Source: Anthostomella pinea
Lineage: Eukaryota; Ascomycota; Sordariomycetes; Xylariales; Xylariaceae
Assembly (NCBI GenBank): GCA_963556695.1
Contig: CAUWAG010000007.1
Location: 4,092,001-4,156,000, forward strand
Length of the DNA: 64,000 nucleotides
Reading direction: 5' to 3'
Made by a program: the position numbers and the translations under genes. Of the stretch, positions 411-59,040 are shown in pieces. The notes under the pieces were generated by a model, which ran no database searches, was not told the origin of the DNA, and was given only the letters and a program-made list of their open reading frames with translations. How positions within the stretch are numbered: the first letter of the stretch is position 1; each line of letters opens with the position of its first letter.

Positions 411-2718
411 TCAATAATGCAACTCAACACCAGCCAAGCTGACCAGCTCAGGGAAAATTGGAGTGCCTAAGCCCGTGACCGGGCTATCAAACTGTCAGTG
501 TTACTCTTGTAGATAACATGGCTGTTTCTCGGGAGTTCAAACTCGTATTTCAGGTGCAAACACCCCCGGCAGAAGTTCGACCTCCCGAGACACCATGCAA
601 GGGGACAGAGGTTCAGTTAGTACTTACTCCCAGCCTGTCGCTGCAGGGAATCCATCCGTATTACATCCGACAGCGGACCCGGAGACGATGTCAGTCAGGC
701 CCTTGAAACCCTTAGAGTAGAGCCAGGGGTTCAGGAAGCCGAGCGATGGCTTGCCGGAAGAGAGCAACGCATCACTGCAACAGTGTCAGTACTTGTCCCG
801 CAAAGAAACTTGAGATCACGCGTTGGCCCCAGGAGGAGGTGTCTGTATATAGTATGGATGACTTACTTGACCAGGGAGATTATTCCGCCTGTCAGTGGAG
901 TACTAGCGCTTGTGCCACTGTGATTTGTTTTTAGTAAGCTTTTCAACCGCAAGCGAAGAGCCAAACCCAAATACCTGATAGTATCTTCTGTGCCGTTCCA
1001 GAAGTAGGCGAAGTTGAGACCCTGGGCCGAGATGTCCGGGTATCCACGGCCGGTGTGGTTGTACAGGCCGTCGTAGAGGCCATCGAGGCTTTCAATGTAG
1101 CTTGTGGCCTCCTTCTTCTGGTAGTCGGGCATAGGGAAGTAGTTGCTGAAGCCACCACCAGAAGCATCGGCAAGCAAATTAGAGTCAGCAATTGCTTCAT
1201 TTAGATGTTTTGTGGAGTAAAATGGAGTCGTAGTGCATGTCTCGGGAGCATGACACGGGCTAGAAGAGGGAATTCGCGCCCTGGACATGGCCAAATGGGG
1301 AAATAATGAGACTCAAAAATGTACATACATTCACCGCCGCTTACACCTCGGGAGTCGACGAAGGCAGGTAGATACGCTACGATTTCAGGTTCGAAGTTCA
1401 TGGTCGCTCCAACCGTGGTAACGTATCCGCAGCTAGAGGGGAACATCGGCAGGAACTTGGACGAGTTGGTTCCGTCGTTGCTGATGCATTCATCCTCGGG
1501 GCCTACGCCGTAGTCGCCGCTCGAGAACAAGAGCGAGGTACCTCGGGCACCGACTTGTGCGAATTGTTGACAAACTCGCAGGGCGTAAGAGTAGGGAACC
1601 GTCTGCTCATCTTCTCCATACGACGTCGTTATGACCTGGGGAAGAGAGCCATTCTGGGACAGCAACCAGTTCACCCACACCAGGTACGGCTCGTTCGAGT
1701 TGTCAGGGGTGCTGGCGTCAGGGTTGAAGGGAGGGCTGCCGCCCGTTGAGTAGCTGATGATGGGTACAGTTTTGGTGATACCGGCGATAGCTTGGACGTC
1801 CAAGTTGGCTTCCTCCGATTGGGCATTCTCGAGATCTTCTTCGCTCAGAGGGAGGTCTCCCGGTCCGCCAGCAATGGTAATCTGAGGAAACGTGAAGGCG
1901 CTGTGAACAGCACTCGGCTGGTACTTCTCAAGAAATTCGACAGTGTCGCTGCGGATAGGGTGATCGCCGAAGAAGTTGTTAAATCCTATCATGTTAATAT
2001 TAGAGCGGGTCTTATAGCCTTTCGTTCCGTACAGTGTCTCGAAGCATTCGGGTGCCACACCCGGTACGGCTGCATCAGATGAGTAGTTGCAGACCGCAGC
2101 AATGGCCTCGTTGGTGGGTGTCTTGTAGCTGGAAGCGAGCTGGACCATCGGGGTGACGATATGGTCGAACGCTTCGGCACGAGCCCGGAAGAAAGAATTG
2201 GTTGGTTGAATAGTGTCGACACGGCCGTGGAGATGTTCTGGAAGCGACCACTTGGGTGCTCGAGCTACTATACCGCCATCCTTGTGCTCAAAGAGGTGGT
2301 ACTCGGTGTCCAGAAGACCCTCGACGGTCTCAAGGGGCAGAGAGATCGTAATCCAGTCCTTGGCTGGCGTGTACTCTGAAGGGACAACACCATTGTCTTC
2401 AAGCCACTCGTGCACGAGATCCAGGGTCTCGTCAGCCGGCTTGACAAGCTCGTTGACCCTGGCTGCGGAGAGGTGCTGGCCGTATCTGGAGCTCTCGGGA
2501 TCGGAGACTTCCATCAATTGCCTCTCGAGCTCTGGAAAGTTTCCTTGTTTAACCCCAATCTGGAGTTTGATGACATGGTCGGCGGGAGCTCGACCGATTC
2601 TCTTCCATGGCCTGGGGACGTGGTGGGAGTCCTTGAGCTTGTAGGGGGTTCGCGAGCGCACAGTGTTTGCGAACACGGCCTCGGCGGCGAGGAGCGCAAA
2701 GAGAGTGAAGCCAAGCAT
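411..2718 (-). CDS. sedolisin-family (S53) serine-carboxyl peptidase, tripeptidyl-peptidase type
   Basis: Secreted acid protease that removes tripeptides from protein N-termini. I read five exons: 2718-1347, 1194-975, 917-867, 774-628 and 483-411. The start at 2718 is preferred over an ATG at 2757 because it opens directly with a signal peptide (MLGFTLFALLAAEAVFA). A long propeptide follows. Catalytic features are visible: the E-x3-D pair in EEANLDVQ, the nucleophile Ser in SGTSAS formed across the exon 2/3 junction, and the C-terminal GWDPVTGLGTP formed across the exon 4/5 junction, which is the usual S53 calcium-site region. The protein ends just after this, so the gene looks complete. The intron between exons 2 and 3 (918-974) belongs to a repeated intron family described separately. 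The family assignment is firm; the exact subgroup is inferred. Exon 1/2 boundaries are the least certain. Confidence 0.93.
918..974 (-). repeat. introner-like intron, copy A (57 nt)
   Basis: Intron of the sedolisin gene, starting GTATTTGGG and ending CACAG. It aligns almost end to end with the 57-nt intron at 37637-37693 in an unrelated transporter gene. Shared blocks include GGCTCTTC / CGCTCTTC, CTTGCGG and AAAAGCTT / GGAGCTT. A GCTCTT...AAAAGC stem with one mismatch can form. Confidence 0.85.
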
Positions 2719-3532
2719 GATGGGCACCTGAGTCTGCCTGGTCGTCTGGGAATGCAAGGACGAGCTGGGCAGAATAGAAAGGGCGGACCGGGCGAGAGCG
2801 GTGGTGTTCGAGACTCGGCTGCGCTTTACCTGTACGCGTACGACAGGTTCGCCGTCAGCGCGTATGCAGCTCGTGCAGCTCGTGGGCTATCACCCCCGCA
2901 TACAATATAATTATACAACATACCTAGGAATTGTGTTGTATTGTATCTTTTAATAGAACACGTGCGCTTTTTGGTTGCCTGGCTGGCCTTGAAGGGGCGC
3001 AGCCAGCTAGGAGCCAGCCAGGAGCCAGCCAGCTAGCCAGCCTAGCCATATAGGGCTCAGCGCCGGACTGGGATAAAGAGCCTCCGCACCGCTCTGATCG
3101 CAGGGCTGAACGCAGGAAGAGGAATGGGTGCCGTTTCGTTCCTTTACTTCGTTCTGGAACTTTACTTCCAAACTGCTCAAATCCCTGACGGGCAGGGCAA
3201 ATTTATGTGTCATTGCTCCTTACTCTCGGACTTCGGTTCCTTTTCGGTGAGCGTGCCGATAGCCGTCGAAGATACCGGCTAAAATGACGAGCATGGACAC
3301 CACATCTGAATGATCGATTGCAAAGACACGGATTTGGGTGATGTAGAAGCTTGCTTCGGCTAAAACTCTGGTCTATGGCAAAAGCGCAACTCGTATGTGT
3401 GGCTGCGCCACAATCAGCCTTGGCGGCTGATACCCGTCCACCATCCTGTCTCACCGACCCACAACACCGTACCCCTATCGATCCGTAGCATCGGCTCTCA
3501 GGCCGGAGGAGTCTAACGACTCCTCCAGTCCT
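2719..3532. other. intergenic with AGCCAGC-rich repeat
   Basis: This holds the sedolisin promoter. At about 2998-3052 there is a short array of AGCCAGC and CAGCCAGCTAG motifs, partly self-complementary through AGCT/CTAG cores. No gene is recognised. Confidence 0.6.
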
Positions 3533-3994
3533 TCAGGTAGCGTTGTCGCGCATCGCATCGAAGAAGGGCTGGAGAAGGTTTGGAGTTTTGAAGTCGGCCT
3601 CGCTCAGACCGCTGGCATCCGGCGCCGTGCCATGCTGTGCCTCGAAGACCTGTCGACGTGCCAGGTAGATGGCCAGTTCGTCGTTCCACTCAGCACAGCG
3701 CTGGCGCTCAGCTGCGTCGTTTTGGGCGATCGCTGCTTCCTTCTGCGCCATGGTCATGAAGCCAAGATCACCTGGGATGGTAGGGTCGGCGTTGGGGTAC
3801 TTGATGAACGCCGCCGAGCCCTCATTGCCGTTGCTGTCGTATGCCTTCCATTCGATGACATTGGTGTCGCGATTGAGAAATGGTAGGATGAAGGCCGCGG
3901 CGCCGGCCTGGCGAGCAGGGTCAGGGTTGCTGCCGGTGTTGCTGGGCATCGTGACTTGTTTTCTGGTGCTGGGCGAATCGGTCAGCAGTGTCAA
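3533..3994 (-). CDS. unknown small acidic protein, about 138-153 aa
   Basis: An uninterrupted frame of 153 codons, or 138 if the second ATG at 3949 (MPSNTGSNPDPAR) is used. The protein has no signal peptide or membrane segment. It is rich in Ala, Asp, Glu and Asn, with a central helical-looking stretch (AQKEAAIAQNDAAERQRC) that could be a short coiled coil. I do not recognise a family. Coding is supported by its length, its lack of low-complexity sequence and the balanced composition, but no homology was tested. A G-rich purine/GT tract lies just upstream at about 4060-4170. Confidence 0.5.
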   Translation of the reverse strand: MTLLTDSPSTRKQVTMPSNTGSNPDPARQAGAAAFILPFLNRDTNVIEWKAYDSNGNEGSAAFIKYPNADPTIPGDLGFMTMAQKEAAIAQNDAAERQRCAEWNDELAIYLARRQVFEAQHGTAPDASGLSEADFKTPNLLQPFFDAMRDNAT

Positions 3995-5247
3995 GAGCTT
4001 GGAGGAGGCGGGAAGCTGACCGTTGTGATGATGTCGTGATGTGGGACGCTTGGTGATGCAGAGATGGAGGTGACGGGAGAGTTGGTGGAGATGGGAGAGC
4101 TCGTGTTGATGGGAGAGGTGGTGGTGGTGGGTGGTGTTGATGGGAGAGATGGTGGTGAGTGGAAGGTCTTCGATGGGAAGATGGGCCGTGGTGACCGAAG
4201 TGGTATTGCAGCTGGCAGTAAAAGCTGCCTGGGGCTACTGCTCGGAAACAGGAGTCTCGGGTCAGGAGCTAAGAGAAAGACCAGAACCATAGGGTGAGGT
4301 TCTGGTGCGTAGATACTGACTTATAAAGCCGACCGCCTTCCTGGTGGAGGCAGAAACAAAGGGAATCTGTTGGTGGGAAGAGGGACGAGACAAACTTGTT
4401 GTGCTTGTGCACCTAAGACTCACTTTCTACTCTGGGTTACCCTCTTCATGGAGGAGGGATGAAAGGGACAGTAGCAACATAATCTACCCCTTCTGGTGTT
4501 GACATATTTCAGAGTGAGCCCGTCAGGGGGTGATATAGACATCTTGATGGTTTCCGTCGGCACAACTTGGCATATTTCTACAATATTCATGATTAGTGCC
4601 GCCATAAGCACTATTGTTGGAAGATAGGGGTTGGAAAGCAGCCGGCTCCCATGCTTATCGTTTGTTGGAATAATTCCAGATCACACGTGAAAACTCGGAA
4701 ATCTAGAATAAGCAAACAGGAACAAGCAGCTCATGGGCATTAAATCATCTTTGATGCTTATTCCAGCATGCTTATACGGTTTATAACAAACACACTTCCG
4801 CTTGGTGGATGAGGAGGGTTCAGTGTACAAGGGATCGTGCGACCATGAACTACGGCTGTGACTTATTCATTATCCATGTGATCATTGATGTTTGCCTGTA
4901 CGACAGCCACATACTCCGCAAACAAGGATGGATCAGCCGTTGTCGCTGTTGATAATTTTAAATGAGCCCATTGCCTTGGTTGCCGTCGTGACCCGTGCCC
5001 CCTTGCGCATCAGCTGGACAACCACCCGCACCAGTGTGTTACAACTTCTTTCACAACCCACATTCTTCGCGAAAATTAATTCTCGCCAAGAAAACACCTG
5101 CCACCCACCTTCCTCCTCCTAGTATTCCCGGAAGCGGATTGTTCCTCGCCGATAGAAGATCAGCACCCCTCGCCGATAGAAGATCAGCACCCCTCGCCGA
5201 TAGAAGATCAGCACCCCTCACCCGTTTCAACATCTCTGCCGTTGCAA
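3995..5247. other. intergenic with G-rich tract
   Basis: From about 4060 to 4170 the plus strand is a GA/GT-rich tract with the imperfectly repeated motif GTTGATGGGAGAG and runs such as GGTGGTGGTGGTGGG. It sits in the promoter of the small minus-strand gene. The rest shows no recognisable gene. A 3 x 24-bp repeat near the right end is listed separately. Confidence 0.5.
5145..5216 (+). repeat. three perfect 24-bp tandem repeats in a 5' leader
   Basis: The unit begins CTCGCCGATAGAAGATC and ends AGCACCC. It occurs three times without a mismatch at 5145-5168, 5169-5192 and 5193-5216. It ends 31 bases before the chosen start codon of the glycosyltransferase gene at 5248, so it probably lies in the 5' UTR or core promoter. 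Confidence 0.9.
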
Positions 5248-6968
5248 TGAGTTCTCATCTCGTTGCTGTAGCCGCTGCCATGGGCTGTAACTTCATTCCC
5301 TTCTCGCCGGAGTTCATCGCAATCCTCCCTCGTCTTGGGATTGCCCTCCTTGTCAGTTTCTGGTATGTTCTATCCATTCTTCCAAAGACCCTCCATATGC
5401 TTGCCCGACTTCAATCGTGGCGTGACGCCAGAAGTGCCCAAGTCCTCCTCCCACCAGACTGCGATCCGTGCTCATGTTGGAGAGAGGCTGACCCGGTCGC
5501 AGGCTCTGGGGACGCGTCGACCTATGGTACCAGACGAAGCATGGCAAGGCCTACAAACCCTACCGGGTTGCTGCGAATTCTAGATACGGCGCAAATGATG
5601 TCAGCATTGTCGTCTGCACCATCGGACCGGTCGGCAACTTTGAGATGTGCATCCGCTCCTGGCTCTCGAACAAACCTCTGGAACTCATCTTTGTGACCAC
5701 TAAGGACAAACTGAACGCCATCTCTGCCCTGATCGACGAAGTGAAGTTCCGTCTTCCAGCCGATCAGGCAAAGAAGATCAGTCTCCTTGCCGTCAAGCAG
5801 GCGAGCAAGCGCGTGCAGTTGGTAGATGGTATCAACGCTGCTCGAGGTCTCATCATCGCCACCGTCGACGATCACATCCTCTGGGGTGAGGCCCTCATGC
5901 CCCACATGCTTGCCCCCTTCGAGGACATCGAGGTTGGCGCAGCTGGACCTGGAACCGATGTCTACACTGACCCTGCCCGTCGCTATCCTGGTGTCGTCAC
6001 AGCCTGGGAAACAGCCGCTACTCGGCTCGCCTGGAAGCGAAAGCCTACTTACAAGAACATGTTCGCGATCACGGGCTGGTGCTGGATTCTCGGTAAGTTA
6101 ATGCCCCCTCCCATCTCCCGTCAGCCTTTGAACCGGTTTGCAAGGACCTATCATCCAACGAGTACTGATGATCTACTTCCATGTAGCCGGCACTACCACT
6201 TTCTACCGCTCCGCCATCCTCAAAGACGCCGAATTCCAGCACGCCCACCTGAACGATTACTGGTTCGGTCACAAGCTCAACGCCTCGGACGACACCTTCA
6301 TCTCTCGCTGGCTCCAGATCAACAACTGGAAGCTTGCCGTCCAGATCATGCCACAGACCGAGATTCTTCGAACCGTCAAGCGCGACAGCTCATTCCTGAC
6401 CCAGCTCGCACGATGGGAGCGAAGCACGATCCAGTCGTTCCTCCGATCGCTGTGGGAAGTGCCTCAAATCTACCGGTAAGTCTGCGCGGGGTGCAACTGT
6501 CCTAGGAGAGAATTGTTTTGCTAATGAGTATATTCCAGACAATGGTATGTCCTGTACAAGACGCTCGAGAGACTCACCCGACCCGTCTTCACTGCCATCC
6601 ATGTCGCCGCCTGGTTCCTGTCGTTTTACTACACTCCGCGCCTCACGTGAGTTATCTGCTTCGAATCCCAACATGTCCCATATACTAACTGGACACAGTA
6701 CCATGCTCCTACTATGGTACATCTGCTCGGTCGCACCGTCTTACGCCGAATTCCTGGGCGAATACCCCTGGATGTGTCGACACCTCTGGGCTCTCGTTCT
6801 GACCGACTACTACTACGCTGTCTATGACTGGTATACTTGGGGAACTCTCAACAACGTGAGTAGATTGGCTCACCCTGACCCTTCTCAACAACTGTCTGCG
6901 TGACTTATGGACTGACACTACCATTACAGACCCAGTGGGGCACCCGCGACATTCCTGGCGAGGAGTAA
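5248..6968 (+). CDS. membrane glycosyltransferase family 2, fungal GT2/Cps1 type
   Basis: Polysaccharide-synthase-like enzyme of the fungal plasma membrane. Six exons join in frame: 5248-5362, 5503-6092, 6188-6475, 6539-6646, 6699-6855 and 6930-6968. The N-terminus has a hydrophobic segment (LGIALLVSFWLWGRV). The catalytic part begins at NDVSIVVCTIGPVGNFEMC. Motifs seen are DDHILW (nucleotide-sugar site), GWCWILAGTT, NASDDTFISRW with the second acidic pair, and QLARWERSTIQS, the (Q/R)xxRW-type motif of processive GT2 enzymes. Hydrophobic helices follow and the protein ends TRDIPGEE. Related fungal GT2 proteins affect the outer cell-wall surface and hyphal growth on solid surfaces; the specific product made here is not known from sequence. 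Confidence 0.9.
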
Positions 6969-7651
6969 GGGGGAGCAAGGCAGGCGTACGAATCGACAAG
7001 TGGTACCTCTGGGGAAATGGACCCTTACAAGATCATTCGCAATACGCCTGCACAAGCATGAGAGGCATTACTTGAGATTGTCTCTACTGCTAGTCATTGG
7101 ATGGACACCAAACACTGCACATCAGCTCACATCGCATGACCCCAAAAAAGGGGTTCAAAAAGGTGTGCTCTTGAAGACGAGTCTGGTAATGCACCTGGAT
7201 ACTTGATACTCAGCTACTTGCCGAACAACCCAAAATTAGGTGTGCGAGATCGTCTAGATCTGGGAAGAACCCAAGGAATTATGTGTGGTAGTGCTCGGTT
7301 TCATAGCATGCAACACTGCAGATACAACTCCTCTCCTGTCTCCGTGACTGATGATTCTATTGTTGCTTGTCTTTGAACTCTAGACTTCTATGTGTCTAAG
7401 TAATGGCGTGTGTTGCGCATTATGGGTATTGGTCTCGCCGCTCCTTATCTTCCAGCGCCTTGCTTGCTATACATATGCTCAATGAAACAGTTTCCTTGTC
7501 CTCGCTTTTAAGTATCCCCACAGTCCATTCCTTCGCGCTTTAGGTACATTTCCTCTCGTCCCACGGCTTGAGAAAGGGTCGCGGAGGACTGCTGACCAGC
7601 GACGCTGATGACATGAAGATCAGCAGCCTTCCTCTCCTCAGAGCAACCACC
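6969..7651. other. convergent 3' intergenic, no gene seen
   Basis: This lies between the 3' ends of the glycosyltransferase (plus) and the aquaglyceroporin (minus). I see only short, unsupported frames; it should hold both 3' UTRs. Confidence 0.5.
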
Positions 7652-9851
7652 TCAGAACTTCCGCCCAATGTTCTTGATCTGCTTCTTGCGGTTATGCAGA
7701 GCCTTGGGAATTCGGTAGTTTACCGGCGACTCGCTCCCGACAAAGATGAACAGATCGTAGAAGATGCAGCCCGCCAACGCCCCAGTCAGAGCCGCGGCCC
7801 ACGGGCCGTATATCCACCAGGCATTGTCGAACAGGGCTGGGGTGCGGTAGCCTACCCACAGGGCGACGAGACGGGGGCCGAAGTCAGACGCGGGGTTCAG
7901 GGAAGAACCGGTGTTGTAGCCCAGGCAGAACTTCAGGGTAACTTGGAGGAAACCGAGGATCTAGAGTCATGTTCATTAGTCCTCGCTCAAGCAGTTTCAG
8001 TGGGTTCGACTTACCAAAGCATGCATTCCGGCTCCAGGAGGGTTGTTCTGGTCGTCACCAAGGGAGAACACGGCAATCATCATGACCGCTCCAGCGACGA
8101 ACTGCGAGAAGAACGCCCCTTCGACCGAGACCCAGTCCTGCGGGGAGGAGAAGAAGCTCTTGTATGACGACGACATGGTCGGATCGACGTAGTGGATGGC
8201 GTCGTAGTAGGTGCCGTAGGCCATGGCTCCGGCCGTGATGCTGGCGAGAAACTGCACGACGATGTACATGGCGCATTGGCGCCAGGGGAAGCCACGGAAG
8301 ATTGACAAGCAGATACTGATGGCTGGGTTCATGTGCGCTCCGGAAACGCCACCGCCTGGATCGTGTCAGCTGTTGCTCTGTGATATGCTGAAGAAATCGA
8401 CGTACCTAAGTAGATACCCAGCATGAAGGCGAAGCCCCATGCCCAGCAACTGTACGAGTGATTAGCATAATTTCGACGCAAGGTAATGTGAGCCAGATTG
8501 GGATGGGTGCCGAAATATCGGGTAAGGGTGTGTAAGGGTTGAGGGGTGTAAGGGAAAAGAAGGGGGTGGTTGTGGGAAGGGGTGAAACTAGTGGTAGAGG
8601 GTTACAAGGAAGCCGGGGGTGGGGTCCGGACGAGGGTGAGCAGAGTGATCGAAATGTCAAATACATACGCAGTCTCGTAGGTGCCGTACTGCGTCTCCTG
8701 ATTGGCACTCAGGTTGACACTGAGGGTGGCACAGAGTCCGAGGAAAACCGACAGGCCAGTCTACGTGATGGCACAGTTGATTAGCCGTCTCGTTTCAGCA
8801 GTCTGGATGATCATGTCAGACTCACACAAGCGAATTCAGCGAGCGGCTCGGGGTACTTTGCGCGCATGCGAGCCCACCAGTTCCTGAGATCTTCCGGATC
8901 AGTCTCGCCTTCCTCGGCCTCGTCGTCTTTAGTCTGGCCCACGGGCTCGCCGTCAACCTTGTACTTGGAACCTTCCTCATACCCGGGGCCCCTCTTCCGA
9001 CTGCCACCGCCGGCATTGAGGTCAGGTACACGGAAGTCGGTCTCCCAGGGCTGATGGTCGTAAATAGGAGGCGACCCAGCACCATTCTGGTTCGGGCCGT
9101 CCTTACCCATCATCTCCTGGTCCTCGCCCTCTGCGATCTGCACGCGCTTCCCCTTCTTGGATTTCTTCGGGCTCACGCCGGCTTCCCCTTTCTCCGGGTC
9201 GGCCTCTGAAGGCTTCTTCTTGGGTTGCTTCTTCTTTGACCAGGCTCGGCTTTTGTGCGGCAGCGGCTTTCCGAGACTGAAGACGGGCTTCTCCTTGCCT
9301 TTGCCGTACCACGGGTTGGTGTCGTAGTACTCGTCGTCGACCCATCCTTGTCGGTCTATTCCGGGGGGCTGGTCGAGCGGTTGCGCCGGGCGGTCGGACT
9401 GGGCCTGCACCTCGGAGTACCTGCTGGCATTGGTACGCGTGCTTGCGTTACGCGCCGGCGGCATGTTGTTGTCGACTGCAGATGGTAGTTAGCCGGAGGA
9501 TAGGAGAGCGGTGTGTGCTCATGACAGCCTACCTGATCCCCTCATCGGCGCCACACTCATGTACTCTTGCGTCGCATGGATACCAGACACCGCGGTCTGG
9601 ACAGCGCGGTGGGCTTCCGTGAGCTGTTCGATCTGTTCCTTGTTCGCTTTCATCTCTGCTCGCAGCTCGGAAAGTCGCTGAGCAGTCCCCGCCTTGCGAG
9701 AGTCGACCGAGCCTCTCGGTAGCTTGGAGCTGCTGTCATCGAGCGGGATCTCATTGAGTGTTTCCGGGTTGGACGAGTCAGCCTCGGCCGAAAGCCACGG
9801 CATGCTGACTGAGTCCGATCGATGTCGTTCATTACTATTAGGTGGAGGCAT
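7652..9851 (-). CDS. aquaglyceroporin (MIP family) with long cytosolic N-terminus
   Basis: Channel for glycerol and water in the plasma membrane. I read six exons starting MPPPNSNERHR at 9851 and ending NIGRKF, stop at 7652-7654. The first about 300 residues are hydrophilic: a short coiled-coil-like region (ELRAEMKANKEQIEQL), then a Lys/Glu-rich low-complexity stretch. This is like the extended termini of Fps1-type osmoregulatory channels. The pore domain follows, with the first NPA box in GAHMNPAISI and the second in SLNPASDFGPRL. The Asp after the second box is typical of glycerol-conducting members; the usual Arg is Ser (NPASD instead of NPARD), which is a departure. Introns fall within the membrane part near 8770-8830, 8460-8670, 8345-8410 and 7950-8020. 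The family is firm; the transport preference is inferred. Confidence 0.9.
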
Positions 9852-22077: not shown

Positions 22078-22134
22078 ATTAAGAGTCTCATCGCCGATCC
22101 CTTTGACTAAACCCATTTATCCTGTATATCTAAA

Positions 22135-37394: not shown

Positions 37395-40345
37395 CTACCA
37401 GGTCGCGGGACCAAAAGTGTCCCCTTCCGCCACCATCTTCAATATCGCAGTATAAGACGCATCCTAGACGCAATCGTCAGCATTCGACCTCTCAGGCGTA
37501 TAGGGGCAACCCATCGAGTTACTTACGGCTGTATTCATGACATCCACGTTGCCCCACCACTGCGGAATGGTGACCCCTGGCAGGGTGATAGCGAAGAAGA
37601 TGACGATTGTGGACAGTATCAACCCTGCGTCAAGACCTGATTTATTTTGTTATTAAGCTCCTCGGCCGCAAGTGAAGAGCGAAGCCCAAATACCTGCTGC
37701 CGTGACATAATTGTACGTGTGCCACCAGCCGTTAAACCGTTTGCGTATGCCATAGTTGAAGACCAGTCCCGTGATAGCCCAGGTCGAGAAAGAGAGGGTC
37801 GTAGCCGGTGGCAGCCAACTCATGGCTCCCAGCATCACAGGGGCGTTGAGGTGACGGACGAATTTGACGTTCGTCTTGCGGATTAGGACCCAGAAGATAA
37901 GCGGCAGAGCTGCCCCGAGGAGCCAGAACCAGTTGAAGTTCACGTATTGCGAACCTTGGCCGAACATTCGTTGTGGGCCGATGACTCCCCAGACGATCGA
38001 GGAGGAGAAGAATGCTCGTCCGTTGGGACACGTGAAGTGATCTGGTTGCGTGCTTGGGATGAGTTAGTTCATCGGCTGCTGAGAAAGGGGGTAGAGAGAT
38101 ACCCCACTTACATTTCACACACATTGGGGATATTTCCAAGAGTCCAGTTCATAACCGCTATCTGGACAAAGACAGCCCAGATACTTGCCGCTACCTGGCA
38201 CGAAAACGTAATTCTCGGAGGCACCTTCATGTAGTGTGCAAGCTTGAGGTCGCCGCTAAATTCGAGATTAATCATTGCTGTAAATATCGCACGGTTGAAA
38301 CCCTTATTTACCTGTATGTTTGGGCCTGACCTAGACAGATTGTGGAGAAGACCTGCTTTTATTTTATTATTGAGCTCTTTGACCGCAACGGGGGAGCCAA
38401 ACCTTGAAGATCATGACGCCGACCGGGCGTCCTGGGATCATGAAACCGGCTAGGAAGGGGGAGACGACGTTAAGGGACAATACGATGTTCGAGACCGCGA
38501 GAACCATGCACGTCGGAATGACCCACGCCAGCCCTAGAATGACAGAAACAAAGAACGCCCACTGCGTGTATGTTAACATATTGTCTCTAAACCCGTATCG
38601 CTGATTTCTTGATGAAGAAAGACAGGAAAAATCAAGGCTTGTTCACCAAGGCTCAGGGTCTTGGGGTGGGATGTTTTTATACGTACCCAGGGCAATTGCG
38701 AATCGAATCCGAGAGTAGCCGCAAGACCGAGAGCGACTGATGGCACAAAGAGTGCCGCGTACCACCAGTCAGGGCACTCGCGATACTTCTTCATCAACTT
38801 CAGATGGATGTCTGGCTCCTGACTTTGCGCTGTTCGGAATCGATACCAGATCTCTTTTCCATGGAACAGACCGGCATGGGTCAATGCGGCGGTTAATGCT
38901 GCGAATGAAAGTCCTATATAAAAGTGTCAGCGCTTACCTGTGATATGAAGGCAGTGGGTTAAATGGTTAGGAACCTACCGTAGTTAAGTGCCAAGCTTGG
39001 AGAGAGGAACAGAGGCGAATATGAACTGTACTTGTTGGGGTCGAACTGAAAGCTGTCACCAAGGATACGGCTGACGTTGTATGCAGACTGGGTGTTGTCG
39101 TATGTCTGCGAAGTGACCATTGGAAGATATTCAGAGTAACTGATTAGGTTTCAGTACCAAACCTGAGCAGAGGGGACACAGATGAAGAATGAGTACTTAC
39201 AGCGCCCCCGAATAGGTTATACCGATCGTAGTAATGATGACAAAGATGAACAGCCCGATCAACGTATTCACATGGGCATGAGTCGGCGCAAGAAGTGGGT
39301 CATCCAGGTACGCGGTCACATACGTCCAGTCGAAGGTAATGGGCAGCAAGCTGAGCCCAGTGAAGCCTCCAAAGAGCTGGTTGAGAACGACGTTGTTCGG
39401 TTTGATCCATGTGACAAACGCGAAGACCGAGAGTCCCTGCCAGAGCACCCCGGGGATCCAGTAATAGCAGGACATGGCGACAGTGACGTAAAAGAAGTAC
39501 CTGTACCTGCTGATGACCCAGCCGTTCGAGCTGACAGCGTCGCTCTTCGTCTTGTCGTGCAGCGCAATCAGGAGCGAAGTTTTACTGAAGACTGTTGGCC
39601 AAATCATTGCAGAAGGCCATACCAGGAACCTCCGAAACATGCCGGCCAGGGATATACCTATTAATTGAGAGCTTAAGGTAAAGAGCAGCGAGAAGCCCCA
39701 GCCGAAATTGATGTTGTAGAAAGGCTTTCCCTGGAGCGCAAGCAATGCGTCGGTACTGTAGGCGTAGCTGATCGAGACGTTGGCCATCAGAGTGACCACG
39801 ACGTGTTCTTTGATCGTGAAAGGGCCAGGGTTAAGAGTCCACTCCAGCCCAAACGTGTTGAAGACACGAGTCGGAAGAATCCGTGCCCACAGATTACCCA
39901 GGGGGTATGTCAGAAGCAGCACCACGATAGCGGGAAAGTTGATGGCGGGACTCCTCATGGACAGGAACATGTTCAGCCCACTGGCGATGGTGACGAAGAA
40001 CATGCCCAGGACCCAGGCGCGCAGCGTGTTGGCGACCTCGCCGCCGTCGACGTTCCTCACCGCAGCACGAACTTCTTCGTATGGTGAGTCCTCAGTGAAC
40101 ATGAGATCAGCCTCGGCGATCTTGTCGGCATCGCCATCCTCCAGGGCTTGCTTGACGGCATCCAGTTTCTCCTGGGGCAAGTTGGGATCCCATTGGTGTG
40201 AGTGCTGTATCTTGTCGAGGTCGGCGGTGGCGGTAGCGATGTCTACCCCATGGTGCTTCTCCTCGGGCCAGGTCTCTTGCACCGGTGTGATGTCTGCAAC
40301 CGGTACATCTGAATCTGCTGCCTTTCTAGTAAACGGGAACTTCAT
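37395..40345 (-). CDS. oligopeptide transporter, OPT family
   Basis: Proton-coupled importer of small peptides (or glutathione-like substrates) in the plasma membrane. The first exon (40345-39197) encodes a hydrophilic head with the TEDSPYEEVRAAV line typical of OPT proteins, then several membrane helices. At least seven further short exons follow, with pieces such as FHGKEIWYRF, SVILGLAWVIPTCMVLAVSN, NLEFSGDLKLAHYMKVPPR, MNWTLGNIPNVCE, TCPNGRAFFSSSIVWGVIGPQRMFG and RRFNGWWHTYNYVTAA. The last exon ends FGPATW, stop at 37395-37397. Two of its introns, at 37637-37693 and 38353-38402, belong to the repeated intron family. Exon junctions were checked at those two introns and at the end; the others are approximate. 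A run of G-tracts lies about 300 bp upstream. Confidence 0.92.
37637..37693 (-). repeat. introner-like intron, copy B (57 nt)
   Basis: Intron of the oligopeptide transporter between codons for YVTAA and GLDAG. It starts GTATTTGGGC, ends AAATCAG, and matches copy A in length and over most positions. GCTC...GAGC can pair around a CTTGCGG loop. Confidence 0.88.
38353..38402 (-). repeat. introner-like intron, copy C (50 nt)
   Basis: A second copy in the same transporter gene. It starts GTTTGGCTCC and ends AAAAGCAG, and contains GTTGCGG and AGAGCTCAATAATAAAATAA. It lacks the first 7 nt of copies A and B. Splicing joins MIFK to VFSTICLG, restoring the OPT reading frame. Confidence 0.85.
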
Positions 40346-50591: not shown

Positions 50592-52385
50592 TCACGGAAG
50601 GACCCCGTCAATGTCCCCCTGTAACTTCCCCTGACAACGGAACCGTTCACTGGAGATGTCCGAGTCTTCAAACCCAACACACTTCCAGCACTTGAGCAGC
50701 CGATCTGGATCATACTTCTGCTTCACCTCGAGCAGCCTGGGGTAGTTGTCTCCCCACCACGACTCGCGCCAGTTCTGAGTGAAAATGTTGGCTTCGTTCG
50801 TGTAGCCCCCACCCGCTTCTCCGGTCAGGTCTTCGACGAGCAGTGTCACGTTGGTGAATGCGGTCATGTTCAGGAGGCGCTCCGCGTACGAGGCATTCCA
50901 CGACACTGACATACCAGTCGACAGGAACCAAAGGGCGTCATACCATGCCGAGTTGACCGAGGTTTGGCCTCTGGCGACGTCTCTGGCTTCGTGGGATGAG
51001 GCGTTGTCCGCGACAAAGGGGGTACCGACTGGACAGTAGAACTTGCGAGGGTCGAATCCCAAGTCCTGGATGGAACTGATGAATTCCACGATGCTTTGGA
51101 TGCCCTCTGCGTTTTCGAAGAGCTTTCGTGGTGCTAGTCTTGGCGACACCATGCGGACAGTTCCCGATGTGTGAGTGGCCCCCGGCAGGACGTACTTGTT
51201 CCAAACGCTGAGGAAGTCAGGGAGGACCTCGACGACGCTGGTTCCTCCCACGGCCAATGCGAAACTCGTAGCATTGCTCATCGAAACCTCAGCCTCCGTC
51301 AAGTTGGAAACAAGCGGATTCATGTGAGTCAAGTAGAGTCCGGCAGCGTGTCCACCCCATCCTTGCGTGCCCCAGCTGAGCGACTCCCGTGCCATCAGTG
51401 CTATCCACTCAATTGCAGTTTCTGTCGTGATATTTGACGGCAACTGGATGTTGGCCACTGCTACTGGGGCAGACTTCTCGACCCGGTGCGTCGCCTCTAG
51501 AACCACCCCAAACGTTCCACCGCCCCCGCCGCGTAGAGCCCAGAATAAGTCAGGATGCTGGTATGGATTGACAACTCGCAGCACACCATCTGGGGTGACG
51601 ATTTTGAACTGAGCCACGCGGTCCACCCCGAGTCCAAACGCCGGCGACAAAACACTGTGGCCACCCCCGAGGACCCATCCTCCCGACGCAGCTATAGTTG
51701 GTGAATAGCCTCCGACGAAAGTGCTGTTGTGTTCAGACGCAAATTCGATCACCTCCCCAGTGCTGACACCAGTGGCAACAGTCACGGCGCGCCCTGCAGT
51801 AATGTTTCCTGCACAGCCCTCCAAAGCGAAGTCTGCGTGGAACTCCATGCCCCGCAGTTTGTGTACCCATAGAGCGAGAGACCCCTTCTGGCTATTCCGA
51901 GTCAAGAAGTCATGCCCGCTGTTCTTGATGACCAGTGGTACGGCATGCGTCTTTGCGAAGGCGAACGCGGAGATGATGTCGGAGACTTCTTCCACTTCGA
52001 TGCGACGTGATGGCACGCTGCCTTGGTTGCAAGAGGAGCCTGGCGAAGGTTGACCTGCTGGGGATACGCTATTGTCCAAGATGCACTGGTCGTCTGGGTC
52101 TGATAGGCACATCTCGTCTTGCAAGTTAAGGTACCCGCTGGGCGATTCTGCGCGAAATTCGTTGTCGGTATAATTGGCTCGGATGAGGGCGCAGGAGTCG
52201 GCATCAACCACCACGGGTTTGCCATTATACGAGGAGTAACACGGGAGTGCCAGCGGCGTGGTGACGTGAAGACGGCCATTGACCGAGCCATTGAGAGCCG
52301 TCCAGTCCTGATCGGTTTGGCATATTCCGCCGACAACCCACGAGATGCACACTATCAATGATACGGGGAACATTTTGAGTTCCAT
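50592..52385 (-). CDS. secreted FAD-linked oxidoreductase, BBE-like
   Basis: Extracellular or secretory-pathway flavoenzyme of the PCMH/berberine-bridge type. A single exon of 597 aa; a signal peptide follows the first few residues (MFPVSLIVCISWVVGGIC). The FAD domain is clear: VIKNSGHDF, where His is the usual covalent FAD attachment, GYSPTIAASGGWVLGGGHS, then LFWALRGGGGGTFGVV. The position that is Cys in bicovalent members is Ser here (GYSP), so one covalent bond at most is expected. The BBE C-terminal motif is seen as NEANIFTQNWRESWWGDNYPRLLEVKQKYDP. Several N-glycosylation sequons occur. Relatives oxidise sugars or secondary metabolites; the substrate is unknown. Confidence 0.93.
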   Translation of the reverse strand: MELKMFPVSLIVCISWVVGGICQTDQDWTALNGSVNGRLHVTTPLALPCYSSYNGKPVVVDADSCALIRANYTDNEFRAESPSGYLNLQDEMCLSDPDDQCILDNSVSPAGQPSPGSSCNQGSVPSRRIEVEEVSDIISAFAFAKTHAVPLVIKNSGHDFLTRNSQKGSLALWVHKLRGMEFHADFALEGCAGNITAGRAVTVATGVSTGEVIEFASEHNSTFVGGYSPTIAASGGWVLGGGHSVLSPAFGLGVDRVAQFKIVTPDGVLRVVNPYQHPDLFWALRGGGGGTFGVVLEATHRVEKSAPVAVANIQLPSNITTETAIEWIALMARESLSWGTQGWGGHAAGLYLTHMNPLVSNLTEAEVSMSNATSFALAVGGTSVVEVLPDFLSVWNKYVLPGATHTSGTVRMVSPRLAPRKLFENAEGIQSIVEFISSIQDLGFDPRKFYCPVGTPFVADNASSHEARDVARGQTSVNSAWYDALWFLSTGMSVSWNASYAERLLNMTAFTNVTLLVEDLTGEAGGGYTNEANIFTQNWRESWWGDNYPRLLEVKQKYDPDRLLKCWKCVGFEDSDISSERFRCQGKLQGDIDGVLP

Positions 52386-53354
52386 GGTCAGATTTTGGAG
52401 ATATAGAGCTACTAATCTTCACCTGCAATGTCGTGTTGTCCTGCTCTTATACCCCAGGCTTATTGACGGTGTGTGCCAGAGGTGTCTTATTAAGCCACTG
52501 TCGCTCGCGTTCTGGACCAAACTTGCCTATACCGCTAGTCACAATAATGCAGTAGGATATGTCTTACATTGTCGATGCATCCTCAAGGGCCTAGTGGTGC
52601 AGTGCTTACACACATGCCTGTATTCCCCAACGGATGCTACATCACTGGCCTATCAGGGGATTGTTGCAAGGTGGTGCTAGCAAATGTGGCTGCATACTCC
52701 AAGCGATGCAGAAGTCCGGCTGCATGACCTCGGGTCTCATGTTTAAGTCCCATAGGCTCCTTGGTATTACTCATGGCTGAGGCGAAGTTACCAGGGGCTT
52801 TGTCCGTAGGAGCTTGATTGGCCCTGCAAGTCTGAAGACTGGGCAGCAGTAATCGTTCATAACACGCTTGTAAGACGAACAAGGTAGCGGATAATCATGA
52901 GTAATCATAAGCGCTGAGCACGTAATCTAATGGACCCTTTGCAACTTGCCCAGTTACCCTGCCAACATGATAATTCGTCCAGCAAGGATGGCGGTGGCAA
53001 CATTCAAGCGTGGGTTGCTCCCGCATATTTGCCTCTTATGGGGGCCGCGGACATCAATGCCTCCCTGGGTGACAAAATCGACCATGTCGGATTGGTGAAT
53101 TTCGGCATCGCATTTCTGATGGTATGGGTCGAAAGTTGCTCTTTGTGTGCGCGATGGAATAGCTTTGATACATCAGCGACACCAAGTACCGTTTCGGTCA
53201 ACTCTTCTTTGTTTATCAGTGCTCAACCAAAGGGCCAGAAACAAACAAGCAGCTCGGTGATGACCGTATTGAATAATATCACAAGACTCGATGCACTTTT
53301 TTCGCGTCTAGGGCTCCACACGAAATTTTCATTCCGCTGTTCATCCTCGACTTC
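52386..53354. other. intergenic, no supported gene
   Basis: Upstream region of the FAD oxidoreductase and of the kinase-like gene. A 246-codon plus frame starting at 52930 overlaps the next gene in another frame and has no domain; it is not accepted. Confidence 0.45.
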
Positions 53355-56300
53355 ATGGCTTCCAACACAGCAACGTGTGGGCCGCTACCCAAAACGTGGC
53401 GAGAAAAACTGCAACTGTCCAGATGGTTGTTTGGGGAGTACCGCCGAAGAGGCAACGACCCGAGGGGAGGAGACCAAGAAAACAGAACGATGCGTCCAAA
53501 GTACTCGACGCTCCCTGTCCCCGATCCAGATAATCCTACCTTCTTTGACCACGACGAGTGGGAAAAGGACCCGTATAGGAAGGAATGGAGCGGTTACCCA
53601 CTCGATAAACCGATGCCACCCACCGCTGATCCCCCAACAACGAATGCTCAGATTCGGTATACGGAATTGACCACTTGGTTCGGCGGCGCCCCTCGCTAAT
53701 CTCTGCAGGGGCCTCTAGTATGGGGTGGTGAGGGCGTGGCGGTTCATTGCAAGTACCATGGAGACTTCGGTGAAGATGTTCGTGGTCGTGACATAGTCGG
53801 TGAGTTGTAGCTGCGCGACGCGATCCATGTCTTTACTGCTTCCTTTTGCGAAAAAGAAAACGAGGTATCGCTGATCTCGGCAAAGTCAAGGTAGCAGTTG
53901 ACAGTTGGCAAAGCGACGGTATTATCCACGAGCGGCTATGATGAGGGTCAGTTCCACAGAGTCCAGCATGGCATGAATGCACTAACATCAGTACTGCGCA
54001 CCAGAAAGTCAAGAAATCGGCACGCTGTGTGCAGTTGATTGATGCAGAAGAGGTTGGCAAACCTCCAGAGCCTGAAATTTATATGCGGATACCAGCGGAC
54101 GATTCCGACGTAGACTGGGCATCAAGTGGGAGCGACAGCGAAAGTCAGGCTTCATTACGTAATCGAGGATCCAGGAGGCGAAAGACATATGGGCAACGAC
54201 ACTGGGAACGCAAAGCTGCAGAGAGGGAAGAACGAGAGAGAGAAGTTGAGAGAGGGTTGAGGAAACAGGCGAAAGAGCCAGCGCGAAGGGACTACCTGAT
54301 CATGGAGTACCTTGAAAACGGCGACTTGGTAAGCTTGATATATCAGCTTCAAGAAGACAAATCCACGGACGGGCGAATTCCAAACCGAGTTCTTTGGGCG
54401 TTCTGGCTCTGCTGTACCATGCCCCACCCCCTAACGGGACACACCCCCCACCGGGACAGCCAAACCCCACCATCACCACCAAAATACCCCCTTACTCACT
54501 TACACGCAATTGAGGCTGAAGATGCCCAAAGAAATCAACAAAATTATCATTCTGTGGTGTTGAGGCTCCTCAATCCACGTATCTAGCTGGCGCCCTAATT
54601 GACCGACCGCTTCTCGTCACCTGGGGCTCTGCAACAGGGGCTTCTTTACCCTCCTCAGCCTCCTCAACCTCTTCCTCCTCCTTACCCTTATCTTTAACAA
54701 TCTCTGGCTCTGCTTCTGACTCTGAAGACTCTATAACCACGGCCCTTAACGGGTCACCCCCCTGGGCCAATACCTCGGTCATATTCATGAACTTCTGGTT
54801 CGGATTTGGGACCTTCTTCCTCTTCTTGGGCCGTAGCCGCTCTAGTTCAGCCTCCAGGGCCTTGATCTTATGATCTTTTAGGGCCAGCTCCGTCTCCTGG
54901 TTCTCGAAGGCGTGGGAGATCTTCCTGAATTTCAGCCGAGTGGCTGGGGAGCGGTTCTTTACGAAATCTATGATCTGTTGGCTTGTGGTAGGGGTCTGCT
55001 GGTCTTCTGGCTCCGAGTCTTCAACTTCCTCTGGCTCCGGGGTCTTTCTTTTATCCTCCTGGATTTCCGGGTGCTTTAAACACTTCCTGCGGCTAACTGG
55101 GTAGCACCCCGTTACTCGGAAGCCCGAGAGGATATTCGGCTTAGAAAAAGCCTTGTCCCTAGCCTGAGAATAACAGCGGATGAAGTTGATCTTATCCACG
55201 GGCGAGGCATCTATGAGAGAATTTAACTGCGAAAGAAATCTCTGGTAGTAAGCTTTGAGCGCGTTATATGGTCCGTTATCTAGTGGTTGCATGCCGTGGC
55301 TGGTATGGGCTGGGAAAAAATAAAACAAGATATTAGCAAAATAACACCGCAACATGAACTCGTCCTGTTAGTTATACAGTTAATTAACTGATTAAACAAC
55401 CCCTGAAAAATAAATAACGTACGAAAGTATGGCTACCATGGCCATCTAGTATCAAAAGGATCGGCTCTGCCTGGTCTTCCCCTCGTACAGCATCCATCTG
55501 GGGTAGGAAAATGTGGTCCAACCATAGGCACGCAATCTCGTTACTGGTCCAGCCGTTATCTGACATTATGTAGTACCAACCCGCGATTTTGTGTAATTCT
55601 TTGATGAACCATTAAGCCTGGAGATCTTTTCTTTTGAAAATTATGCCTGATTTGAGAACTTTTCCCGTGGCTGAGATGGCTTCGATAAAGGAGGTCCAGC
55701 CACACCCCTGGGGACTCTTTAGGAAGGCTTTCATAGTCTCAGAACTTCCTAAGACTAGGGAATCGATGCCTATAGGGGTTAGCTAGTTAACTGACAGGAT
55801 AGGGGTGAATAGGGGGTTAAAAGACTAACCAAAACCCGACATGATGCCGCCCTTATCGACATTGTACGTATTTTCTGGCTTCACCCATTGATAATCCCCC
55901 AATATGTCAAAGAACCAGTTGACAGACTTAGGGATGAACCCCTTAAACCGAGCGGATTCCATCCGCTTACCGATTTTAGTCTGGATAATAGGGTTACGGC
56001 GTTTATAGCCCTCCATATAATTCGGGCCCAGTGGTGCGAAATCCCCCCCCCTTTTTCAGCAGTTGTATAATAATCTCCCGTACGGCTGTGTGAGAAGGGG
56101 CAAGCCCTAGGGACTCCTGGCGCAATATCCATTGAGCCACCTTACTCTCTTGTTGAGGGGAGAGTCTCTGCTTGCTAACCTGGGCCTCGGCTCAGGTGAC
56201 TCTGCCGTTGATGCGTGCTGACAGCGTTTGTTTAGGGATGCCGTGTTTTTGGGCGGCTTTTCTCACAGACATGCCGTTATCTGTCACATCTAGCCAGGCA

Positions 56301-59040
56301 TCCGCCACATTATCTTCAGTGTACATGGGCGGAGGCATCGTGGCTGGCTTCACGATGCTGTGGCGGCATAAGGGTCAGGGGCTCAGAGAGAGAATTCTAC
56401 AGCAAATTTGCATTTAGGGGCGGGGCACAGAGGCTCCTAATCACTGATGCCGATGGCTGAAACTTCACTAATCTATATCCGGCTAAACACCAAAAAAAGG
56501 GCTATCTAACCATCTAAAGAGCGTATAGATAGCCTCAAAGGGGGCTGTAATCCGTGTAAGTGAGGTAGGGGACTTTTGGTGGTGGTTGTGGGGTTTGGCT
56601 GTCCCGGTGGGGGGTGTGTCCCGTTAGGGGGTGGGGGATGGTAAGTCCGAGAACCACACTAGTAGCCATTGTTCTGACTGACACCGAGCAAGTGGTTAGA
56701 GCCTGTATCGCAATGGAGTATCCTCCAAGAAAGCATCACCGTCTACGGAGGGAACCGACTATCCCCGATGGAGCTGTAGCGTGTGAATCGGCGAGGCGCA
56801 AAGGGATGATGCGAGAGCTCAAAGGGCTAGGGACACCGATCTATAAACATGCAGAGCACGAGAGGGACTTGGCAAATTACGAGCTACTGGAAGGTGACCT
56901 ACTTGAAAAGTACCCATCGAGAGCCAATCAAGACAAGCGAAAACAAAATATGGTTCACTTCGACATAGATCCTCCAAATATCTTCATTGGGGGTCTCGAG
57001 CTGGACCGTGCTGGAAGAGGACTGTGGCGAAATACCCGTAGTGAAGCGAAAGCAAAGGCAAATGGCGCTTCGACGGAGCCCGACAAGTCTACAGAGAAGG
57101 CCACCGACAAGGCCACAGAGAAGGCCACCGACAAGGCCACCGACAAGGCACCTGAGAAGACCACAAAGGGAGCCGTAAAGGATACCGCAGAAAAAGACGG
57201 GGCCAGTTCAAAAGATAAAGGAGGTAAAACAAACCCCTTACGTGTGATACACGGTCAGCAGAACCGAAACCCGACCGAAGAGATGGGAGCATTCGCTTGT
57301 TCCTCGACTCAAGGTAAGTTGAAGCACCGTGTTGGACTAAGCATGAAGCCTGACAATTCGGCCGATAGCTTGGGGATTATGGCACTGCAGAATGCATCAG
57401 ACAGGCAAAGCGCAAGTAAGTATTTGCCCTCTGCTTTGAGATACGATGGCCGTGGCTAACCTGCTCGACAGCGTCTATTACCTCAATCGGCGGTGGAAAG
57501 CGAAGCATGGCTTCCACGCCCCTGTGAGTTCAGTCAATGCAAAGTCCTGATTCTGTAGTCAGTGCTATACTGACACATCAGAAGGAGCAATTCGGTCCAG
57601 AGTGGGACAAAATCCCTGATAGGCCCCACGGTCCTGAGTTGGTTGAGTCTAATATAGCCGCTAACTATAGATCTCACACGAACGTATGGGGTATTGCATG
57701 GGTATGTTTTATTTTATTATCAAGCTCTTCGACGCCGAGGAAAGAGCAAAACCCAACTGCCCTAAGATACCACTAAAACCAGAGTCCCCATGCTGCACGC
57801 AAGAGCACAAGGTCCAGTCTGACAGAATATTACTCCACAACATTGAAATCATCTCCATCCCCATCCACCAAATCTCTAACCATGGCGTCTTTTCATGAAT
57901 AAAGACCAGAACGCTGATAGAAACAGACAATGTGGATTTTGATAACCAAATGTAAGTCTGCGCTCTTTCTTATCCAAGGAACCCATAACTGACAGCCCAA
58001 AAGACTATCCTCCGACACCACCTCAACCACAACCGCCTTACGACCTGCCCGTTGCCGACCCACGGTTAACAGACGAAGCAATCGAATTATCCGGGCGCAG
58101 TCACGTCATTTCGTACTGCCCATTCTTCCTGGACCCAGCTAACACAGACTACGACTACGTTGACATCAGATTGCGCCAGACGATTTCTCAGTGCATGAGC
58201 CACGATCCCGGTTGGCGGCCATCGTTAAAGCACCTTGAATATCAAGCCACTCAAATCGTTAGAAATGCGGCGTTCTTGGGCGAGACCGATGAGTACGTGA
58301 GGCGGTGGGTACACTACTGGCTCTACGAGGCGCCATCCACCTCTGGCCCCGGCGGACCGACAGGCACGAGCGGTAAAGCAAAAGGTTTCGGTGGCGGAGG
58401 CGGCGGCGCGCCTGTGAACAAGCTGGAAGAGAACCTGGCTTCGAAGAAGGACCCTGACCACCCTATCCGAATCCAGCTGCAGATTCAGTACAATGCTAGC
58501 TTTCCATATGGCCATGATCGCATCCCCAATGCGGCGGTCAATCTCGACTGCGGGTTCCGGGCACTGGTCGACAGCATCCAAGCCCAGATCGGACCGAACC
58601 CCCTGATCGGCGGCGTCCCGACCGCCATTGTGCTCCCAAGAAACGGTGATCTTCGGACTATTTACAACAACCCGAAGGCAGCGGGTGAATTCGACGTACT
58701 CGTCCTGTTGAACGAGGCCAACGAAGACGAAGAAAGCAACTACTTCCTCTCTGAGCTGTCGCTGGTCCTGGTCCGCTGGGGCGAGTCCGTCGGGCTGAGT
58801 CTCCAGCTTTGCTATATCCTGGAAGGCCGCGGGAGGCCTATGCGCGAGCCGGTGGAGGATCAGAATCCAAGGAACCTCTGGATATATAACGATAATGCGA
58901 TGGATCTCGCGGGAGCCAGTTACAACCATTACGAGGGCATTCGGGCCAGGCCGCGGCCCGCTTCACCGGCCGGCGGCGCTGGTACCGGCGTTAAAGAGGG
59001 GGCCGACCCGGACGACCTCCCAGACTATGAAAGCGACTGA
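53355..59040 (+). CDS. protein-kinase-like gene, probably a pseudokinase, with transposon in an intron
   Basis: Many exons, only partly certain. Pieces in order: MASNTATCGPLPKTWREK (53355, start not proven); VWGGEGVAVH, a Gly-loop-like line near 53715; VVKVAVD with a candidate ATP-binding Lys; CVQLIDAEEVG; DYLIMEYLENGDLVSLI, the hinge region; WAFWLCLVRACIAMEYPP, formed across the transposon-carrying intron; VHFDIDPPNIFIGG, the catalytic-loop equivalent with Asp; a low-complexity KATDKATE repeat; then NVWGIAW, another long intron, and CMSHDPGWRPSLKHLEYQ, the kinase C-lobe end. After the C-lobe a Gly-rich linker leads to about 200 residues of unknown type ending DLPDYESD. No DFG motif is visible where expected, so catalysis is doubtful. 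Exon limits apart from the described intron are approximate. Confidence 0.7.
54417..56641 (-). mobile_element. 2225-bp pogo-family DNA transposon inserted at a 5' splice site
   Basis: Inverted repeats start CCATGCCCCACCCCCTAACG at the left, with the reverse complement (one mismatch in the first 22 bp) at the right end; similarity extends about 85 bp inward. TA duplications flank it at 54415-54416 and 56642-56643. Removing it restores CTCTGCTGTAAGTCC, where GTAAGT is the donor of an intron in the kinase-like gene. After insertion the left side reads GTACCATG and the right side reads GGTAAGTCC, so a GTAAGT donor is recreated by the element's last G. Confidence 0.88.
54570..56338 (-). pseudogene. 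pogo-like transposase, interrupted
   Basis: Read from 56338: MPPPMYTEDNVADAWLD and a psq-type helix-turn-helix (SVRKAAQKHGIPKQTLS), then an in-frame TGA after INGRVT, a CENP-B-like part (RLSPQQESKVAQWILRQE), and catalytic pieces YNVDKGGIMSGFG (first Asp, with the usual Glu changed to Lys), LLILDGHGSHT (second Asp) and HTSHGMQPLDNGPYNALK (third Asp). The long C-terminus has a coiled-coil stretch (ALKDHKIKALEAELERL) and an acidic tail. Several stops and frame changes make it inactive. It runs antisense to the host gene. Confidence 0.82.
57090..57170 (+). repeat. in-frame tandem repeats coding EKATDKA
   Basis: Imperfect 12- and 24-bp units (GAGAAGGCCACC / GACAAGGCCACA) encode repeated EKAT/DKAT tetrapeptides inside the kinase-like gene. 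The unit number is likely to vary between strains. Confidence 0.8.
57702..57760 (-). repeat. introner-like element, copy D, reverse orientation
   Basis: Plus strand reads GTATGTTTTATTTTATTATC followed by AAGCTCTTCGACGCCGAGG and AAAGAGCAAAACCC, which is the reverse complement of the copy A-C type. It lies at the 5' end of a roughly 300-nt intron of the plus-strand kinase-like gene, and the exon ends right at GTATGT. GCTCTT and AAGAGC form a perfect 6-bp stem. Confidence 0.75.

Follow-up and report, generated by a model that had tools for sequence, protein, structure and literature searches.

Introners are intron-generating transposons, and the ascomycete families among them, as set out in the available account (PMC9860276), were described without target-site duplications or terminal inverted repeats and were interpreted by others as RNA-based. 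Introner-like elements of this kind are described for Fulvia, Dothistroma, and Zymoseptoria (PMC4457414) and for Alternaria (PMC9860276). Another route to introns is the insertion of a transposon into an AGGT target, for which PMC3443670 lists Oryza, Drosophila, Oikopleura, and Zea. Short retroposons are also known from filamentous fungi: AfuSINE2 and AfuSINE3 of Aspergillus fumigatus are 140 to 493 bp long, have target-site duplications of 4 to 14 bp, and normally lie in intergenic regions or near coding regions, according to PMC5063351.

Here we describe three related introns in a 64,000-nt stretch of the genome of Anthostomella pinea (the window), together with the dispersed element from which they appear to derive. 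Like the ascomycete introner-like elements as portrayed in PMC4457414 and PMC9860276, they are short, similar introns of unrelated genes, with precise borders and no evident duplications; here, by contrast, the unit comes from a longer dispersed retroposon, of which it is the truncated 3' end, the copies of that retroposon have mostly non-coding flanks, and only three introns were found, not hundreds. The element resembles AfuSINE2 and AfuSINE3, as outlined in PMC5063351, in its size range, its target-site duplications, its non-autonomous nature, and its location mostly outside genes, but it has no detected tRNA or 5S head, is strongly 5' truncated, is present in more than 100 copies, and in some of them now forms introns. 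As in the AGGT-insertion gains summarized in PMC3443670, the element makes up the intron body and a host AG(GT) restores the protein; AG/GT (a slash marks the junction) is the target in two of the three cases here. In contrast to those gains, the host is a fungus, the insert is a 5'-truncated fragment of non-LTR type of about 50 nt, and the donor position varies with the truncation. Sequence-similar introns repeated within one fungal genome are shared with the Hypoxylaceae, whose stwintron-derived introns (PMC8469720, PMC12403724) are set apart by their description as nested introns, with no retroposon parent mentioned in the portions of text available. A search of titles and abstract openings in the open literature, with subscription papers and preprints outside its scope, returned no report of fungal introns derived from truncated SINE-like copies. 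What is new is the combination of a SINE-like family in a fungus with the predicted use of its truncated 3' ends as whole introns.

Three related introns in two genes

The three introns lie in a sedolisin-like peptidase gene and an OPT transporter gene (Table 1). In gene orientation, introns 1 and 2 start with GTATTTGGG and intron 3 starts with GTTTGGC, at the next GT of the shared sequence; GCTC, TTGCGG, and AGCT follow in all three, then an A-rich tail and CAG at the end. A pattern of the shared blocks (up to 3 mismatches) had two matches in the window, introns 1 and 2, and none in 100 dinucleotide shuffles. A consensus compiled by eye, chiefly from genome copies outside the three introns, matched introns 1, 2, and 3 with E values of 3.5e-13, 2.4e-15, and 5.2e-11, respectively (relative to the sequence set searched). 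An unfiltered profile search of the window returned four copies, introns 1 to 3 and the longer copy in Table 1, with no other match below E 0.27; these four match the profile by construction, because they were included in it.

Table 1. Positions of the three introns, their host genes, and the longer element copy in the window
Feature	Positions	Strand	Description
Intron 1	918-974	minus	57 nt, phase 2; sedolisin-like peptidase gene, immediately upstream of the GTSAS motif
Intron 2	37637-37693	minus	57 nt, phase 1; OPT oligopeptide transporter gene; exon junction CAG/GTCTT
Intron 3	38353-38402	minus	50 nt, phase 0; same OPT gene as intron 2; exon junction AAG/GTCTT
OPT transporter gene	37395-40345	minus	9 exons, 8 introns as assembled here; 804 aa
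Sedolisin-like (S53) peptidase gene	420-2718	minus	host of intron 1; low end approximate
Longer element copy	57707-57839	minus	profile positions 2-121 of 122; 13-nt insertion; low-coding flanks; not recognised as an intron

A preliminary description of the window had given the coordinates and lengths of the introns exactly, including the 57 nt of two of them, and had considered them related over nearly their whole length, which the pattern, the shuffles, and the consensus E values bear out. It had also called the copies near-identical, and this is too strong, as each is 87 to 89% identical to the consensus over the part that it retains. Its count of three genes comes down to two for the introns; the flanks of the fourth copy are non-coding. 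That copy had been placed in reverse at 57702-57760; it does belong to the same family, but the stretch is only the 3' part of the longer copy. On these similarities, introns 1 to 3 are homologous to one another and to a sequence family that is dispersed and looks mobile. That one window intron descends from another was rejected, introns 1 and 2 having no shared derived differences from the consensus (alignment by eye). The introns fold no better than shuffled sequences (z of -0.67, -0.59, and -0.45 for introns 1 to 3), and a conserved RNA hairpin at the 3' end of the element was likewise discarded, with consensus folding of 42 sequences predicting no pairs.

Pfam OPT aligns to the spliced OPT protein (804 aa) as a single stretch, over profile positions 2 to 622 of 623; solved structures searched by sequence with this protein gave no match. 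Removal of intron 3 joins GVMIFK to VFSTICLGQ, removal of intron 2 joins YNYVTAAG to LDAGLIL, and retention of either leads to a stop within that intron. In the sedolisin-like gene, for which exon borders were set by eye in the 3' part only, removal of intron 1 yields ISGTSASTP, to which human TPP1 aligns with VSGTSASTP and no gap at the junction; four residues upstream, the alignment has a gap of one residue. Retention would add 19 residues right ahead of the GTSAS motif without a stop. Pfam did not separate the two versions of the sedolisin piece: Peptidase_S8 has a cut-off of 21.8 bits, and neither the spliced form (16.1 bits) nor the form that keeps the intron (14.3 bits) reached it. The conservation of protein sequence across the junctions supports removal of introns 1 to 3 by the spliceosome, which we infer. 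Elsewhere in the OPT gene, an ordinary intron (38914-38978, minus strand) contains an inner CACAG/GTAAG, and alternative acceptors or a nested arrangement are therefore possible there.

A dispersed element with a constant 3' end

Further copies, whose absence would have counted against the reading in the preliminary description, are present in the genome (53.7 Mb in 16 contigs), in which a 25-nt core pattern (up to 3 mismatches) found 144 sites and its reversed control found none; flanking sequence was examined for 84 of 100 sites listed, out of the 144. Most copies run upstream past the intron borders, with a constant 3' end and differing 5' starts, and the longer copies elsewhere have the same 3' end and up to about 260 nt of extra upstream sequence. 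Among 11 matches besides the query's own locus, three share their start at query position 238 and one more starts at 244; these coinciding starts indicate a full length of about 317 nt. In a set of 117 copies, four of them in the window and one rearranged locus (L094) counted three times, the 5' starts (BLAST borders) spread continuously from 1 to 277 without a single preferred point. Five of these starts fall at 262-263, and two of the five are window introns: intron 2 corresponds to element positions ~262-317, and intron 1 corresponds to the same positions plus a few bases ending in AG, with the donor of both being GTATTT at element position ~263. In intron 3, the element is cut about 8 nt further in (position ~270), and the donor is therefore the next GT of the element. 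The A-rich tail reads AATAATAAAATAAA in the alignment.

At least two subfamilies can be distinguished, one with CTTGCGG and the other with CTTCCGG or CTTCGG; introns 1 to 3 carry TTGCGG. Locus L094 (1-775; contig C2, near 8232617) contains several rearranged element pieces in a row, one of them from the 5' part. Two copies on contigs C5 and C9 (L016 and L021) have near-identical flanks, an apparent segmental duplication carrying the element.

To score target-site duplications in 116 copies with sufficient flank, the stretch preceding the 5' end was compared with that following the tail, and the best match was taken. A score of at least 9 was reached by 12 of the 116 copies and by none of 580 mispaired controls; L094 is among the 12 and owes its score to repeated element sequence rather than to a target, leaving 11. 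At a score of at least 7, the counts were 28/116 copies and 26/580 controls. Most copies thus have no clear duplication, and a minority have one, well beyond the control. Examples are L029 (GTAATGGACCTGCAT), L121 (CTGACCTTGACGA), L035 (CCCCGAAGCCAC), and L023 (GCAATGTCAGGT); in the full-length copy L048/L058, GATGGGTAGTG lies a few bases ahead of the 5' end and GATAGGTAGTG soon after the tail. The duplications at some copies outside genes measure 9 to 16 bp. Introns 1 to 3 have no long duplication, their best matches being CAGGTATT and CAGGTCTT (5.5), GGCACA (6.0), and TCTTC (5.0), all in the control range; retroposition at those very sites is therefore something that we infer.

The duplications, the tail, and the 5' truncation together mean that the element fits a non-LTR-type retroposon. 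As in SINEs, it is short, dispersed, and high in copy number, with an A-rich tail and, in a minority of copies, duplications. A head of tRNA, 5S, or 7SL type was not recognised (the only Rfam match in L058, L067, and L080 was weak and irrelevant), and a tRNA search of five loci found none. We scored 150 of 474 candidate reverse-transcriptase sites, and at least 20 of the 150 contain a LINE with a reverse-transcriptase frame of 1254 to 1256 aa (for example, C2:4193610-4194362 and L085), which is therefore probably recently active. A 3' end common to the element and this abundant LINE was not found in the one LINE copy compared (L085, 1255-aa frame), whose 3' region differs from the 3' end of the element. 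Because no pol III head was recognised and the LINE 3' region differs, we call the element SINE-like rather than a proven SINE.

Placement of the copies and evidence for intron gain

The flanks of most copies outside the window are non-coding according to a rough hexamer coding score on 109 copies, which was trained on 19 reading frames (23,727 bases) and combined with open-frame checks; since two of the three window introns themselves scored near zero in their flanks, exons elsewhere may have been missed. By the same rough score on the 109 copies, the enrichment in genes that marks introners was not seen. This rough screen recognised 3 of the 109 copies as introns, all in the window (105 of the copies lie outside it), a count that leaves unassigned some open-frame candidates flanked by long open stretches (L020, L044, and L117 among them). 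Eight copies added later were judged by eye, and one of them (L126) was translated. There are five clear coding-site cases among the 109, introns 1 to 3 and two others. In L019 (1492-1567, minus strand; contig C7, near 2327293), the copy is bordered on both sides by ACTGCTTC and disrupts a coding sequence; no AG was visible by eye between its tail and the coding sequence, and the insertion has not been turned into an intron. L005 (1500-1541; contig C5, near 695593) is possibly an exonised copy: truncated to 42 nt and in antisense orientation, it sits in frame within a long open frame containing ankyrin repeats, to which it adds about 14 codons. Four copies within 64 kb, three of them introns, exceed the density expected from the family, and the clustering of intronic copies in the window is unexplained beyond chance and the way in which the window was noticed.

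The whole genome was also searched with junction-specific patterns. CAG followed by GTATTTGGG... was found at 21 sites with up to 3 mismatches, and with 0 or 1 mismatch at two only, introns 1 and 2. The 3' end of the element followed by CAG was sought with a pattern that hit 34 sites, of which intron 2 alone ends in CAG. An intron-3-type pattern gave 27 sites, two of them with CAG ahead (L134 and L124, both longer copies), and one built for another donor within the element hit 29 sites, each with 2 or 3 mismatches. Two intron candidates outside the window, L126 and L134, turned out to be longer copies. Genome-wide, apart from three sites of the first pattern (C9:2103117, C16:1119193, and C2:8479868), these patterns revealed no further near-consensus intron. 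Diverged introns are missed by such searches, because intron 3 itself is too changed for the pattern of its own type; near-consensus introns of element origin are therefore few, and older ones may exist.

The spliced proteins served as queries for paralogues in the same genome, and an intron was taken as absent where a match ran through the site with its length unchanged. At the site of OPT intron 3 (residue 564), all five covering matches run through (C10, C5, C4, and C16 twice), as do all seven at the site of intron 2 (residue 745; C10, C5, C4, C14, C3, and C16 twice), with lengths within 9 residues of the query stretch. Single stops occur in some of them (TAA in C10, TAG in C4 at site 564, and TGA each in C4 and C14 at site 745), so some of the paralogues may be damaged or misread. 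The C10 match is interrupted around residue 430, where the query gene has another intron nearby, and intron-related breaks are therefore detectable. At the sedolisin site (residue 76), eight of eight matches continue across it and are free of stops; six exceed the query stretch by no more than 10 residues, clearly too little for a 57-nt insert, which would add 19, and those on C15 (+15) and at C5:4427066 (+18) are ambiguous. Since the paralogues run through all three sites, intron gain is likely; with identities of only 26 to 60%, they support gain rather than prove it. Loss of the introns in the paralogues is possible but less parsimonious. The preliminary description had weighed recent introns against old ones shared with relatives; on this point, the comparison covers paralogues of the same genome only, and the introns are absent from them. 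The element thus fills the intron and the paralogous sites have none, as looked for in intron gain by transposon insertion.

Origin of the introns

We consider it likely that the introns are rare insertions of 5'-truncated SINE-like copies into coding exons, excised whole. A non-autonomous SINE-like retroposon of about 317 nt would have spread through the genome, probably borrowing the enzymes of a LINE, presumably its partner in retroposition, for target-primed reverse transcription. Reverse transcription would start at the 3' end of the RNA and stop early, leaving most copies without part of the 5' end, and a few severely truncated copies (~46 to 56 nt) would have been inserted in sense orientation in coding exons, right behind an AG. 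The 3' part of the element, starting with GGTATTTGGG or GGTTTGGC, would offer a usable splice donor, the first GT of the fragment being used; the element would thus supply the donor and most of the intron, and host sequence behind the A-rich tail would supply the acceptor AG. Because it has its own donor GT and a host AG behind its tail, the fragment could be excised as a complete intron of 50 to 57 nt with the protein unchanged, and such insertions would have survived selection. The insertion targets are AG/GTCTT in two cases and CAG/TGG in one. The donor position shifts with the truncation point, which agrees with truncation and is unlike an intact introner. A SINE was reportedly involved in at least one of the intron gains in rice.

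Fungal introns are short and A/T-rich at their 3' end, and unrelated ones may look alike for this reason alone; with no match in 100 shuffles and E values of at most 5.2e-11 against a consensus drawn chiefly from other copies, the probability that ordinary introns resemble one another here by chance is vanishingly small. A family that multiplies in intron form (for example, as proposed for ascomycete introner-like elements, with excised intron RNA being reverse-spliced and then reverse-transcribed) would explain why unrelated genes contain short, related introns whose GT...AG borders are exact and which lack clear duplications, as in the ascomycete introners of PMC9860276. We regard this as very improbable: the shared sequence passes the intron borders in most of the other copies examined, most copies have non-coding flanks by the rough score, duplications of 9 to 16 bp accompany some copies outside genes, the junction searches yielded no further near-consensus intron, and introns 2 and 3 have no common donor position. 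The introner-like reading in the preliminary description is therefore supported as far as homologous introns, a mobile-looking family, and an appearance of gain are concerned, but not as active spread as introns, the family being a SINE-like retroposon of ~317 nt. An active introner family was rejected, as no more near-consensus introns were found and the candidates L126 and L134 are longer copies. In place of many near-identical introns in unrelated genes, there are three in two genes, a count that diverged introns would escape; given the mostly non-coding flanks and the lack of a further near-consensus intron, this is not apparently a family spreading as introns.

The truncated copies might instead have entered or replaced older introns, whose own sequence later vanished, and an insertion into an intron does less harm than one into an exon. 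This is improbable, as only a few bases besides the element are left between donor and acceptor of each intron and the paralogues are intronless at all three sites; both points argue that the three introns are gains and not replacements. Fragments of retroposon cDNA might also have been captured with microhomology while double-strand breaks were repaired, rather than inserted by target priming; this is unlikely yet a live alternative. It would suit introns 1 to 3 in that they have no long duplications and in that the target of intron 2 and the element have bases in common at the 5' junction (CAGGTCTT versus CAGGTATT). Against it, the 3' end and tail of the element are kept in all three, as expected of target-primed insertion, and 88/116 family copies likewise have no duplication scoring at least 7. 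Insertion of 5'-truncated copies into exons, probably by target priming, remains our preferred reading. Its extension to the introner-like introns of ascomycetes in general, such that those without duplications or terminal inverted repeats would be surviving 5'-truncated ends of non-LTR retroposons, is doubtful; selection for exact splicing would in that case mask the truncation by keeping only break points just before a GT beside a host AG.

This small set of short introns, three in two genes, looks like the broken-off tail ends of a copy-and-paste element. With the parent element, its non-genic copies, and the derived introns together in one fungal genome, there is a concrete and testable route to introns, in which truncation of a retroposon would leave a fragment whose first bases chance to be a donor. 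A mobile family can pass for an introner family when its intronic copies alone are seen. As far as can be judged from genome sequence, these introns suggest that mobile-element debris can become working introns.
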